NCBI GenBank assembly: GCA_029240815.1
Contig: JARDZO010000017.1
Span: 1-35,580, forward strand
Direction: 5' to 3'
Length of the DNA stretch: 35,580 nucleotides
Origin: Brevibacillus sp.
Lineage (GTDB): Bacteria; Bacillota; Bacilli; Brevibacillales; Brevibacillaceae
The position numbers were made by a program, and so were the translations under genes. Positions 9,246-35,562 of this stretch are shown here, piece after piece. The notes under the pieces were generated by a model. The model was not told the DNA's origin and did not search any database. It saw only the letters and a list, made by a program, of their open reading frames with translations. The first letter of the stretch is position 1; every line of letters starts with the position of its first letter.

Positions 9246-9265
9246 TACATGCGGTGATAGGGAGG
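9222..9265 (+). promoter_or_regulatory. inverted repeat framing the MFS promoter and ribosome binding site
   Basis: CTTCCCTATCA (9222-9232) and TGATAGGGAGG (9255-9265) are complementary over 11 positions (one G-T) with 22 nt between. The right arm includes the GGGAGG ribosome binding site of the MFS gene. With the predicted promoter, only the right arm lies in the transcript, so a split operator is more likely than an RNA hairpin. If transcription starts further upstream, the hairpin would hide the ribosome binding site. Confidence 0.55.
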
Positions 9266-9273
9266 AATACAGC

Positions 9274-10530
9274 ATGAACCAGAATCAAGAAAGCATAATG
9301 AGTAACAATGGTTTCCGCACATTTTGGCTAAGTCATACTGCTACTCAATTTGGGAGCCAAGTCGCCCTTCTGGGGCTTCCGCTTGTCGCATCCCTCACGC
9401 TTTCGTCAACACCGCTGGAAATGGGCATACTCGGCGCCCTTGAATTCGCCCCGTTTTTGCTGATCGGTTTGATTGCCGGCGTCTGGGTAGACCGGTTTCG
9501 AAGACGCCCTCTGCTGATCTTTTCCAACATCGGTCGCGCGCTGATATTGGCTCTGATTCCCGTCGCCTCGTTTGCGGGGGTTTTGCGGATCGAGTGGCTG
9601 TACGTAATCGCCTTTTTGACGGGAATCGGCACCGTTTTTTTTGACATTGCCTACCAATCCTATTTGCCTGCATTGGTAAACAGGGAGCAGCTCGTAAAAG
9701 GAAACAGCCTGCTGGAGGGGAGCCGTTCAGCGGCGCAAATGTGCGGCCCCGGACTGGCAGGGGCTATCGTCTTGGTCACAGCGGCACCTTTCGCGATATT
9801 GACCACTTCGTTTTCCTTTCTCCTCTCCGCCCTCGCGCTTTTGTTCATCAAACAAGAGGAGCGGGTATCTTCCGGTCAAGGAGCCACGAGAGGGTTATGG
9901 GATGATATTCGAGAGGGCTTGCGTCTTTCTTTTTCCGAGCCCTTGGTATTCGGCGTGATCCGCTGCGCTGGCATTTTTAATTTCTCCTGGAATGTGATGT
10001 TCAGTGTCTATGTACTCTATGCCATTGAGGAACTCCGATTGTCTTCCGGCTGGCTGGGCTTTGTCTACGGAGGGATGGGGGTCGGTTTTTTCTTGGGGGC
10101 ATCGCTCGTCCACAAAGCGATCCGTCGGTTTGGAATGGGTCCGGTCGTGATCGGCTCTGCTGCAATCGCTGCATGCGGAGGGCCATTCGCGCCGCTGGCA
10201 GTTGGCTCCGATGGTTTGACTGCCTTGACTCTTTCAGCCGGCCAGTTTTTCTTTGGGCTTGGCGTATCCATGTGGAGCATCAGCACACTTAGCCTTCGTC
10301 AGGCAATCGTTCCCGCACACCTCCAAGGACGGGTGAACGCCACTGTCCGCTTCGTCTCTTGGGGCGCGTATCCGCTTGGATCTCTTGCAGGCGGTTATCT
10401 CGGTGACACATTCGGCATGAGGATCGCTTTGATCACAGGTGCGGTTGGTCTTGCCGTTTCTGTCTTGACGCTCTTTTTCACCCCGTTTTTGAAAAGGAAG
10501 GAAAAGTCGATGCAAGAGTTTCGTATATAG
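9274..10530 (+). CDS. MFS transporter (enterobactin/macrolide exporter-like)
   Basis: A 418-residue polytopic membrane protein with about 12 hydrophobic segments. Residues 10-30 show FRTFWLSHTATQFGSQVALLG, typical of the MFS_3/EntS-like exporter group; the loop after helix 2 has the MFS signature AGVWVDRFRRRPLL, with the conserved Asp and Arg. Substrates in this group include siderophores and macrolides; none can be assigned here. The start follows GGGAGG (8 nt). The gene is monocistronic with its own strong terminator and lies divergent from adaA across 213 nt. An inverted repeat around its promoter suggests control by a repressor whose gene is not obvious in the window. Confidence 0.88.
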   Translation: MNQNQESIMSNNGFRTFWLSHTATQFGSQVALLGLPLVASLTLSSTPLEMGILGALEFAPFLLIGLIAGVWVDRFRRRPLLIFSNIGRALILALIPVASFAGVLRIEWLYVIAFLTGIGTVFFDIAYQSYLPALVNREQLVKGNSLLEGSRSAAQMCGPGLAGAIVLVTAAPFAILTTSFSFLLSALALLFIKQEERVSSGQGATRGLWDDIREGLRLSFSEPLVFGVIRCAGIFNFSWNVMFSVYVLYAIEELRLSSGWLGFVYGGMGVGFFLGASLVHKAIRRFGMGPVVIGSAAIAACGGPFAPLAVGSDGLTALTLSAGQFFFGLGVSMWSISTLSLRQAIVPAHLQGRVNATVRFVSWGAYPLGSLAGGYLGDTFGMRIALITGAVGLAVSVLTLFFTPFLKRKEKSMQEFRI

Positions 10531-13732: not shown

Positions 13733-14362
13733 CTATGATCTCTTGTTTTCGGATTCCATATAATTTGGTCTCGGACGGTCAAATATTTCACCCAATGTCG
13801 CATAGCTGTGCCCCGCAAGCCTGCTAACCGGAGCAAAAGCCGCAGCATCAATTCGCCCTTGATGATACAAGGCATCCTCTACATGAACGTGAAGGACTTC
13901 CCCGATGATGAGATCTGAGGTGGTCGGATTGCCCAGCTCCACGATCTGATGAAGCTTGCACTCAAAATGGATGCGTGACGCTCCAAGACGAGGCACCTTG
14001 ACAGCAGTGGATGGTTGCAGCTCTATTCCGAGCGCTGTCACCTCGCTCACATCGGGAGGATATTCAGCAGACGTCTGATTCATCACATCGACATTGTGCA
14101 CATCCACCATGTTCACCACAAACTCACCCGTGTCCTGTATGTTGCGAGCTGTATCTTTTCGATTACCTCCTGGCTTGCGCATGACCGCGACCGATATCAT
14201 CATGGGCTCAATGCTTGCGACGTTAAAATAACTGAATGGTGCTGCATTGACGAGTCCCTTTCCATTCATCGAAGTCACCCAAGCGATTGGTCGAGGGATG
14301 ATGCCCCCTATGAGCAGCTTGTATTTTTCTTGTCGTTCCAAATCGGCCATCGTTAATTCCAT
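13733..14362 (-). CDS. flavin reductase family protein
   Basis: A 209-residue FMN-binding split-barrel protein. The N-terminal pattern KYKLLIGGIIPRPIAWVTSMNGKGLVNAAPFSYFNVAS is diagnostic, followed by KDTARNIQDTGEFVVNMV and a conserved H-x-GRIDA near the end. Such enzymes reduce flavin with NAD(P)H or act as FMN oxidoreductases. It is the last gene of the fumarylacetoacetate hydrolase-hmgA operon, 18 nt after hmgA, so it may supply reduced flavin to an aromatic hydroxylase encoded elsewhere (inference). Start after AGGGGA. Confidence 0.9.
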   Translation of the reverse strand: MELTMADLERQEKYKLLIGGIIPRPIAWVTSMNGKGLVNAAPFSYFNVASIEPMMISVAVMRKPGGNRKDTARNIQDTGEFVVNMVDVHNVDVMNQTSAEYPPDVSEVTALGIELQPSTAVKVPRLGASRIHFECKLHQIVELGNPTTSDLIIGEVLHVHVEDALYHQGRIDAAAFAPVSRLAGHSYATLGEIFDRPRPNYMESENKRS

Positions 14363-15572: not shown

Positions 15573-16502
15573 CTATTCGCTGATCCGATTTCGCAAAATG
15601 CCGAGCCGTTCCACTTCCAGTTCAACCACATCCCCGGGAGCTAGCCAGCCATAGCGATCTGCTCCCAGCTCTAAAATGCAACCGGTTCCCACCGTACCGG
15701 AGCCGATGACATCACCAGGGTAAAGCGGGCAATCAGCAGAAGCCCTGGCGATCATTTCAGCGAAAGTAAAGTGAAGGTCTTTCAAGTTGCCGCGCGAATA
15801 CTCTACGCCGTTCACTCTGGCGACCATCCACAGATCGTAGCGATCACCGCGTTCCCCTGTGACCCTGGCATTTTCCAGCTCATCTGGTGTCACCAGCCAA
15901 GGACCCATCGAGGTGGCAAAATCCTTGCCTTTTGCCGGACCTAGCCCTACCTTTACCTCTTCTCTCTGGACGTCGCGCGCGCTCCAGTCGTTGAGGATAC
16001 AATACCCTGCAATATGCTCAGCAGCCTGTTCTACAGAAATATTCACGCCCGCTTTTCCAATGACGCATGCCACTTCCAGTTCATAGTCCAACCACTGGGT
16101 AGCTTTTGGTCTGCGAATGACCGCTTCTGGGCCGGAAAAAGCAGCGGCGTTGGAGAAATAAAAAACAGGGAACTCATACCACTCTGGGACCATTTCTAGT
16201 CCTCTTTGGGCACGAGCTGTTTTTACATGCGCCTCAAATGCATAAAAATCGCGAAAACTGCCTGGACGGGGGAGAGGCGAACCCAGCTGGACTTCCTCCA
16301 TCGTCAATCTCTGACCTTGCCAGTTCTTGCTCGCCACTACGGTTTGAAGCCTTTTCCCCCACACTCCCCATTCCCCCAGCAATTCCGAGATCGTGACAGG
16401 AGCACCTGGGAACACCTGGTTCACTTCCACGACGTGGCCATCTTCATAAAGTCCTGCCCGCCAAGCTTTACCGATGTTCTTTCGATAAGAGACGAGTTTC
16501 AA
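15573..16502 (-). CDS. fumarylacetoacetate hydrolase family protein
   Basis: A 309-residue FAH-fold enzyme, here most likely cleaving fumarylacetoacetate to fumarate and acetoacetate, because it precedes hmgA. The C-terminal catalytic domain is visible: DYELEVACVIGKAG, then AGYCILNDWSARDVQREE, GPAKGKDFATSMGPWLV, and PGDVIGSGTVGTGCILE. Metal ligands would be the Glu of DYELE and the Asp of NDWSARD. Translation starts at a TTG with AAAGGAGTG 7 nt upstream, a weaker start that may tune expression. It is the first gene of the operon, behind a leader of about 240 nt with a cre site and a terminator-like structure. Confidence 0.88.
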   Translation of the reverse strand: MKLVSYRKNIGKAWRAGLYEDGHVVEVNQVFPGAPVTISELLGEWGVWGKRLQTVVASKNWQGQRLTMEEVQLGSPLPRPGSFRDFYAFEAHVKTARAQRGLEMVPEWYEFPVFYFSNAAAFSGPEAVIRRPKATQWLDYELEVACVIGKAGVNISVEQAAEHIAGYCILNDWSARDVQREEVKVGLGPAKGKDFATSMGPWLVTPDELENARVTGERGDRYDLWMVARVNGVEYSRGNLKDLHFTFAEMIARASADCPLYPGDVIGSGTVGTGCILELGADRYGWLAPGDVVELEVERLGILRNRISE

Positions 16503-16553
16503 GCGGAATCACTCCTTTACCACCCAGACCGTTTTCGCCCATCAGAAGACGCT

Positions 16554-16653
16554 AAAAAGCCCAGCTCACCCCCAAGCCGATTCGGTTGCATGACAAAGAT
16601 GGGGTCTCCCCGCTGTCAAACGTTCCGAAACATGCATCAGGCGCAAGCTGGGC
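16554..16653 (-). terminator. leader terminator of the homogentisate operon
   Basis: Minus-strand GCCCAGCTT (16653-16645) pairs with GAGCTGGGC (16567-16559), followed at once by TTTTT (16558-16554). The 77-nt interior folds further: TGACA/TGTCA with GGGG/CCCC inside (16591-16618) and TGCA/TGCA arms. It ends 52 nt before the TTG start of the first gene, leaving no room for a promoter in between, so transcripts must pass it. It might simply be a distal rluA-type gene terminator, but the competing upstream pairing argues for attenuation. Confidence 0.65.
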
Positions 16654-16708
16654 ACTGTCTGCTACATGAGAAAAAATCTTGTGGATTCTTCCCCGCAGAC
16701 AACCAGCT
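16646..16708 (-). promoter_or_regulatory. candidate antiterminator hairpin
   Basis: Minus-strand AGCTGG (16708-16703) and TGTCTGC (16701-16695) can pair with CCAGCT (16651-16646) and GCAGACA (16662-16656), 13 bp around a 32-nt loop. The second half uses the 5' arm of the leader terminator, so the two structures exclude each other. The block CAGACAGTG also occurs earlier, at 16732-16724, in a small hairpin loop, and could compete for TGTCTG. Confidence 0.5.
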
Positions 16709-16751
16709 GTCGTCCAATTGTTCCACTGTCTGGAAATCATTCCATACTTTC

Positions 16752-16780
16752 ATCATAGCGAAAACGCTTTCACTTTTCCA
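16752..16780 (-). promoter_or_regulatory. promoter of the fumarylacetoacetate hydrolase-hmgA operon
   Basis: Minus-strand TGGAAA (16780-16775), a 17-nt spacer and TATGAT (16757-16752). Transcription would start near 16745, giving a leader of about 243 nt. Confidence 0.5.
16759..16772 (-). promoter_or_regulatory. cre site (CcpA operator)
   Basis: TGAAAGCGTTTTCG on the minus strand matches the cre consensus TGWAARCGYTWNCW at 13 of 14 positions. It lies in the spacer between the -35 and -10 boxes, a position expected to give repression by CcpA when preferred sugars are present. Confidence 0.75.
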
Positions 16781-35156: not shown

Positions 35157-35230
35157 TGGAGCGGGTGATGGGAATCGAACCCACGCGACCAGCTTGGAAG
35201 GCTGGGGTTCTACCATTGAACTACACCCGC
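35157..35230 (-). tRNA. tRNA-Gly (UCC)
   Basis: A 74-nt cloverleaf on the minus strand: acceptor GCGGGTG / CACCCGC, discriminator U, encoded CCA, T-loop GGTTCGATTCC, anticodon stem CCAGC/GCTGG with loop CTTCCAA (anticodon TCC). Confidence 0.96.
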
Positions 35231-35242
35231 ATGTAATTGTGA

Positions 35243-35330
35243 TGGTGCCGAGGACCGGACTTGAACCGGTACGGGAGAAACTCCCGACAGATTTTAAGTC
35301 TGTTGCGTCTGCCCATTCCGCCACCCCGGC
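35243..35330 (-). tRNA. tRNA-Leu (UAA)
   Basis: An 88-nt class II tRNA with a long variable arm (CGGGAG/CTCCCG), acceptor GCCGGGG / CCTCGGC, encoded CCA, T-loop GGTTCAAGTCC and anticodon loop CTTAAAA (anticodon TAA). Confidence 0.96.
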
Positions 35331-35356
35331 AAAGCAAGAAAATGATGGGCAAATCA

Positions 35357-35433
35357 TGGTCGGGAAGACAGGATTCGAACCTGCGACCCCTTGGTCCCAA
35401 GCCAAGTACTCTACCAAGCTGAGCTACTTCCCG
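35357..35433 (-). tRNA. tRNA-Pro (UGG)
   Basis: A 77-nt cloverleaf: acceptor CGGGAAG / CTTCCCG, discriminator A, encoded CCA, T-loop GGTTCGAATCC, anticodon stem CTTGG/CCAAG with loop CTTGGGA (anticodon TGG). Confidence 0.96.
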
Positions 35434-35485
35434 ACTATTCAATACATTACAATCTTACCATATCATTTCAAAAATGGAAAGAAAG

Positions 35486-35562
35486 TGGCGTGCCCTGAGA
35501 GATTCGAACTCCCGACCTTTTGATTCGTAGTCAAACGCTCTATCCAGCTGAGCTAAGGGCAC
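35486..35562 (-). tRNA. tRNA-Arg (ACG)
   Basis: A 77-nt cloverleaf: acceptor GTGCCCT / AGGGCAC, discriminator G, encoded CCA, T-loop AGTTCGAATCT, anticodon loop CTACGAA (anticodon ACG, expected to be edited to ICG by TadA). Confidence 0.96.

Follow-up and report, generated by a model that had tools for sequence, protein, structure and literature searches.

What decides between two mutually exclusive structures in the leader RNA of a putative aromatic-degradation operon of Brevibacillus sp.? The window analysed, i.e., the whole stretch of 35,580 nucleotides in contig JARDZO010000017.1, carries this operon on its minus strand, as it does all of the window features given below. The promoter (16752..16780) is composed of a -35 element TGGAAA (16780-16775) and a -10 element TATGAT (16757-16752), and between them lies a cre-like 14-mer (16772-16759), 13 of whose 14 letters agree with the cre consensus. 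The leader RNA of about 243 nt (16503..16745) extends from the start site deduced from the promoter to a TTG start codon at 16502; an earlier note on this sequence had described the same arrangement, which was confirmed. By eye, most of the Brevibacillus relatives have comparable promoter/cre-like sites 5' of the leader, and the cre-like site points to the promoter being subject to carbon catabolite control. The TTG is the first codon of a gene for an FAA-hydrolase family enzyme (PF01557 by Pfam; 15573..16502), which is followed by the genes for a divergent homogentisate 1,2-dioxygenase-like (HmgA-like) enzyme (TIGR01015; 14381..15541) and a flavin-reductase-like protein (PF01613 by Pfam; 13733..14362). 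The former designation as a homogentisate operon conveys too much certainty. The first enzyme scored 98.5 bits against the NCBIfam fumarylacetoacetase with the cut-off of 375.3, all seven of its NCBIfam matches were far under the cut-off, and the HmgA-like enzyme scored 71.6 bits against TIGR01015 with the cut-off of 510.75. The substrate of the operon is therefore a homogentisate-type aromatic at best, with homogentisate itself unproven. Elsewhere in the window, four tRNA genes are clustered on the minus strand (35160-35562).

The leader can form either a terminator or an antiterminator. The antiterminator hairpin (16646..16710), a conserved core of 65 nt supported by covariation and described by our model R1, has three stems: P1 (AGCTGG at 16708-16703 with CCAGCT at 16651-16646), P2 (GTCTGC at 16700-16695 with GCAGAC at 16662-16657), and P3 (16694-16684 with 16678-16668). 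Its arms (16708-16695 and 16662-16646) enclose an inner loop of 32 nt. The switching strand GCCCAGCTT (16645..16653) contains the 3' strand of P1 and doubles as the 5' arm of the terminator, the 3' arm of which, GAGCTGGGC (16567-16559), is followed by a T-run (16558-16554); the terminator arms (16653-16645 and 16567-16559) are thus separated by a loop of 77 nt. These arms, loops, and the common strand are as first described. The leader as a whole folds with -97.9 kcal/mol (z -4.0), and one of 200 shuffled sequences folded equally well.

Both pairings are conserved and covary. In an alignment of 15 leaders (A2; the window and 14 loci), 97.8% of the antiterminator cells were paired and 6 of its 18 pairs had changed on both sides, the corresponding figures for the terminator being 93.3% and 8 of 13; none of these four values was matched by any of 500 shuffles, and structures slid along the same alignment were 27-58% paired. 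No variation is seen at four of the six pairs in P1 or at five of the 13 in the terminator; this is evidence neither for nor against the structure because a strand serving both helices is expected to be constrained. When the core was aligned over 46 matches (40 distinct), two-sided changes were found at 14 of 21 pairs, although this alignment was fitted to the model and is biased towards the structure. The leader hence has two exclusive helices with one strand in common, both of them conserved, as is characteristic of an intrinsic-terminator attenuator. Loss of these pairings in relatives had been named as what would speak against a two-state attenuator; in the 15 leaders, the pairings are kept, and the proposal stands. 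A repeated 9-mer, CAGACAGTG, fared differently: it does occur twice in the window (16732-16724 and 16661-16653) but is absent from the 450-base upstream stretches of 15 leader-bearing relatives and is therefore not conserved.

In a scan of the window, no Rfam family exceeded the gathering threshold at the leader, in line with the earlier statement that no known riboswitch or T-box core is visible; a permissive scan of the leader gave four matches, all sub-threshold, with the best E of 0.1. The terminator state is more stable than the P1 state in all 15 leaders, by 13 kcal/mol on average, and P1 would therefore need help to form. The core also contains an invariant GGGG plus further invariant letters in the 15 rows.

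The distribution of the core was examined with R1, a model of 67 positions built from the 15 Brevibacillus-type leader rows. The window, being one of these training rows, scored 77.2 bits. A search with the FAH protein left 80 loci, of which 17 were of the Brevibacillus type (L001-L016 and L020, including L008 filed as Anoxybacillus); 15 of the 17 had the leader and two (L010 and L013) did not, while none of the remaining 63 loci had an R1 match at E<=1. L010 and L013 retain a promoter-like plus cre-like stretch without the leader. In L004 (B. formosus), about 110 extra nt directly 3' of the terminator (~2860-2975) are flanked by two copies of GGTTTTCTTAT and resemble a small insertion. Among the Brevibacillales genomes, R1 gave 41 matches in 36 of 39 (E<=0.1) and none in G008, G036, and G039 at this threshold. 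Weaker matches in G008 (E 0.6 and 2) were discarded as lying inside long ORFs; weak matches were also seen in G003 and G009 (E 10 and 2). Across 398 sampled Bacillota genomes, R1 matched in G001 alone, a scan which is little informative given its stricter filters and the 13 candidates scored per genome.

According to tblastn at 31 core loci (L081-L090 and L098-L118), FAH and HmgA are both encoded downstream in 27 and HmgA alone in four; in G019, the core is immediately 5' of hmgA. Five Brevibacillales genomes have a second R1 match, and each of two regions has one extra weak core. Gene neighbourhoods were read at 15 further core loci: the second core precedes an operon of LLM flavin monooxygenase, FMN reductase, fumarylacetoacetase, and hmgA-like genes in L119, an LLM gene is likewise found in L120 and L131, and the second core in L121 and L126 lies 5' of a gene for a LIV-type ABC transporter substrate-binding protein. 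The hmgA/fumarylacetoacetase operon 3' of the switch in L119 also encodes (9249-10229) a protein that is about 325 residues long and contains the motif DYAGLFPPA, and similar genes in the same operon setting were noticed by eye in L308, L313, L315, and L317. Neither Pfam nor NCBIfam gave a match for the L119 protein, which is possibly an unrecognised pathway enzyme.

A candidate for the partner of the RNA is found next to the core itself. Thirteen cores begin 3-83 nt after the stop codon of a gene of about 105-125 codons for a DUF3870 protein (PF12986), as assigned by a Pfam scan for two of the proteins and by the family profile for the others. DUF3870 proteins scoring above the curated cut-off are present in all 39 Brevibacillales genomes (88 matches) and fall into several clades; in a tree of 66 rows, which omits the partial L163, 45 belong to a clade (type B) with the support of 96/95, while many other forks are unresolved with such short proteins. 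Type-B DUF3870 is encoded in 36 of the 36 core-bearing Brevibacillales genomes and in none of the three coreless ones (G008, G036, and G039), whose seven DUF3870 proteins are all non-type-B. Placing the three coreless genomes on a tree of pyruvate carboxylase requires two changes, so that they may represent only one or two losses. The window has no DUF3870 gene in its 35,580 nt; its sequence groups with G018, G019, and G020, each carrying a type-B gene, and the genome of the window would be expected from these nearest relatives to carry one as well. In the main Brevibacillus group, the type-B gene is located away from the leader. In L134, it is situated between PAS histidine kinase and GAF-GGDEF genes (Pfam), apart from its presumed target leader, and the same setting was seen by eye in L136, L137, L153, and L156. 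The earlier note had guessed at tyrosine, homogentisate, or a protein as the ligand; the linkage with DUF3870 favours a protein, and direct sensing by the RNA of a small molecule such as tyrosine or homogentisate is unsupported as the first choice.

In the two type-B proteins scanned with Pfam (E<=1e-3), PF12986 was the sole match, with neither a recognised RNA-binding domain nor HutP (PF09021) detected. The predicted fold of DUF3870 appears similar to that of IscU. HutP is absent among the fold matches listed, which does not exclude a HutP fold. IscU and NifU bind their cluster through Cys/His ligands; no such residue occurs in the invariant or near-invariant columns of 120 DUF3870 sequences. 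Our protein alignment A7 leaves out P0034 and P0041. A Bacteroides domain with the entry 3kog is labelled DUF3870/PF12986 in PMC4387736. Because this chain is not among the PDB matches (E<=10) of a profile built from 120 DUF3870 proteins, the entry was set aside.

The association extends beyond Brevibacillales. From a draw of 398 genomes of the class, we took the ten best-scoring ones outside the order, in which DUF3870 is 35-50% identical to a type-B protein and is hence called type-B-like by identity, not by tree placement. Searching these ten whole genomes with R1 (E<=1) gave six matches in three of them (five with E<=6e-5 and one with 0.003) and nothing in the other seven; G580, G540, and G469 each have one match that begins 11, 117, and 4 nt, respectively, past the stop codon of the DUF3870 gene. 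A terminator starts 55-176 nt past the stop codon behind all ten type-B-like genes, and ahead of each of these terminators, a hairpin similar in plan can be seen by eye. HmgA-like, LLM, fumarylacetoacetase, or LIV-permease genes follow in eight of the ten loci (Pfam for L308, L309, L311-L313, L315, and L317; by eye for L310); L316, which has an R1 match, is followed by a zinc-dehydrogenase gene outside the aromatic pathway, and L314 shows nothing telling before the contig end. With cores directly behind type-B-like genes even outside the order and no T-box detected by Rfam, it is very improbable that the attenuator is controlled by another protein, a tRNA, or a leader peptide with DUF3870 as a coincidental passenger, a reading to which the distance between the type-B gene and the leader in the main Brevibacillus group would otherwise lend itself.

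DUF3870 genes of other clades are followed by unlike sequences of the same plan, namely a hairpin whose outer 3' strand forms the 5' arm of a terminator. The family (PF12986) is present in 55 of the 398 sampled Bacillota genomes, and we assembled 119 of its genes (54 of the 88 Brevibacillales matches and 65 from the Bacillota sample), or 111 after dropping eight near copies. A terminator (score >=22, within ~310 nt) follows 70 of the 111 DUF3870 genes compared with 205 of 871 control ORFs (Fisher p 2e-16), the latter being called mechanically from the study loci with spurious ones included. The terminator starts within 25 nt of the stop codon behind two of the 70 DUF3870 genes, versus 113 of the 205 controls. 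Of 57 DUF3870 genes whose next ORF runs in the same direction, 35 were followed by a terminator of score 25, compared with 92 of 554 control ORFs. A test of contiguous complementarity is weak for a single gene, and folding against shuffles was used instead. Leaving out the 41 DUF3870 genes with no terminator and two whose terminator is too near the stop codon (n=68), the 5' arm pairs upstream in 82% versus 44% of the shuffled sequences with a mean fold z of -1.84; for the controls, from which the 113 close terminators and the stretches with the leader motif were removed (n=92), the values were 45% versus 45% and -0.31. Among the 41 genes with no downstream terminator of score 22, 11 are type-B genes away from the leader, a few others are operon-final or have a weaker terminator, and a part is left unexplained. 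A clade of DUF3870 beside genes judged by eye to be acyl-CoA dehydrogenase-like has no such element. L208 and L183 have tandem pairs of DUF3870 genes, and in L208, a terminator with a preceding hairpin is found behind each gene.

The genes after these other switches encode an oligopeptide-type permease, a CoA transferase (scoAB type), an M24 peptidase, and an acetyl-CoA hydrolase/transferase. Covariation supports the antiterminator in two of these RNA types. In the permease type (16 rows), 97.6% of the antiterminator was paired and 9 of its 17 pairs had changed on both sides (matched by 2 of 500 shuffles), as had 7 of 13 pairs in the terminator (matched by 22 of 500). In the acetyl-CoA hydrolase/transferase type (10 rows), the antiterminator was 94.7% paired with two-sided changes at 10 of 15 pairs (1 of 500 shuffles). 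Alignment A9 leaves out L189 and L200, and its P1 was not counted because the columns are shifted between the rows. The recurrence of one switch plan right behind DUF3870 genes in many bacteria suggests that these proteins are a so far undescribed family of gene regulators that bind RNA.

These data bear on whether the RNA might instead be a true riboswitch that itself binds a pathway metabolite, with DUF3870 as a merely co-regulated enzyme or transport-related protein. A conserved core with its invariant letters and catabolic genes downstream would be expected of a riboswitch as well. Nonetheless, the RNAs behind the other clades share the two-state layout with no common core visible by eye, the DUF3870 gene 5' of the switch has a placement typical of a regulator, the Brevibacillales genomes have either both the core and the type-B gene or neither, and none of 20 DUF3870 loci matched Rfam over the gathering threshold; we thus regard a riboswitch as unlikely. 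DUF3870 could also bind the RNA yet promote termination, as TRAP and PyrR do, with the operon being on by default and repressed by the protein. The sign of control is not fixed by the linkage data, and the antiterminator is transcribed first and could form unaided. The terminator state is, however, the more stable one in the 15 leaders and also in 15 of the 16 permease-type RNAs, and the conserved, covarying hairpin that is presumably the binding site is the antiterminator, so that control in this direction appears quite improbable.

We instead consider it likely that DUF3870 proteins bind and stabilise a cognate antiterminator hairpin and thereby turn catabolic operons on, the leader in the window being a target of type B; protein binding, the direction of control, and a metabolite as the inducer are all inferred from sequence comparison. 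When the active protein is absent, the long terminator would form, and transcription would halt before the FAH/hmgA-like/flavin-reductase operon. Type-B DUF3870, probably upon sensing a metabolite of the aromatic pathway, would bind the P1-P2-P3 hairpin and keep P1 closed; the polymerase would then read on because P1 occupies the terminator's 5' arm. Other lineages have the DUF3870 gene immediately 5' of its own switch, while in the main Brevibacillus group, type-B DUF3870 encoded elsewhere would act in trans. With somewhat less confidence, we favour the broader view that DUF3870 is a widespread, hitherto undescribed family of RNA-binding antitermination proteins that respond to metabolites and have an IscU-like fold and clade-matched hairpins in many catabolic operons of Bacillota, and it seems similarly plausible that those operons would include ones for aromatic degradation, CoA transferases, peptide-type transport, and M24 peptidases.

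The proposed control has parallels among known systems. In the hut operon of Bacillus, the regulator gene hutP comes first with the attenuator behind it. HutP is described in PMC7430163 as a small protein that binds NAG repeats and, when holding the substrate histidine, keeps the terminator of a catabolic operon from acting. By analogy, a small protein would here antiterminate a catabolic operon with the regulator gene ahead of the attenuator; unlike HutP, type-B DUF3870 matches PF12986 alone, its predicted fold appears IscU-like, and a structured hairpin covaries. BglG, LicT, and SacY act on a structured RNA element (RAT) to keep a terminator from forming, as stated in PMC8934654 and PMC7430163. 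A structured RNA as the putative protein target that blocks a terminator would be common to both, but the two DUF3870 proteins scanned have no such Pfam domains and consist of a single domain of about 100 residues, and the RNA has three stems. PyrR favours termination of biosynthetic operons. The operons here are catabolic, in contrast to the termination of biosynthetic operons by TRAP/PyrR, and the control would probably be antitermination. TRAP and PyrR are given in PMC7430163 as proteins deciding between two leader folds. Riboswitches and T-box leaders share the two-state transcription attenuation, whereas the present RNAs have no Rfam match and differ in type between the clades of the adjacent DUF3870. 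Protein-controlled attenuation (HutP, LicT, and TRAP) is itself an established kind of regulation (PMC7430163 and PMC8934654).

In a search of the main texts of journal articles, few of them from subscription sources, the name DUF3870 was met in PMC4387736 alone and nowhere in a switch role. The known antitermination proteins belong, to our knowledge, to few families. If the proposal is true, a function would be given to an uncharacterised family found in more than one-eighth of the sampled Bacillota genomes, and several RNA elements would be added beyond the present content of Rfam. The evolving, matched protein-RNA pairs would then be directly testable and might find use as orthogonal genetic switches.
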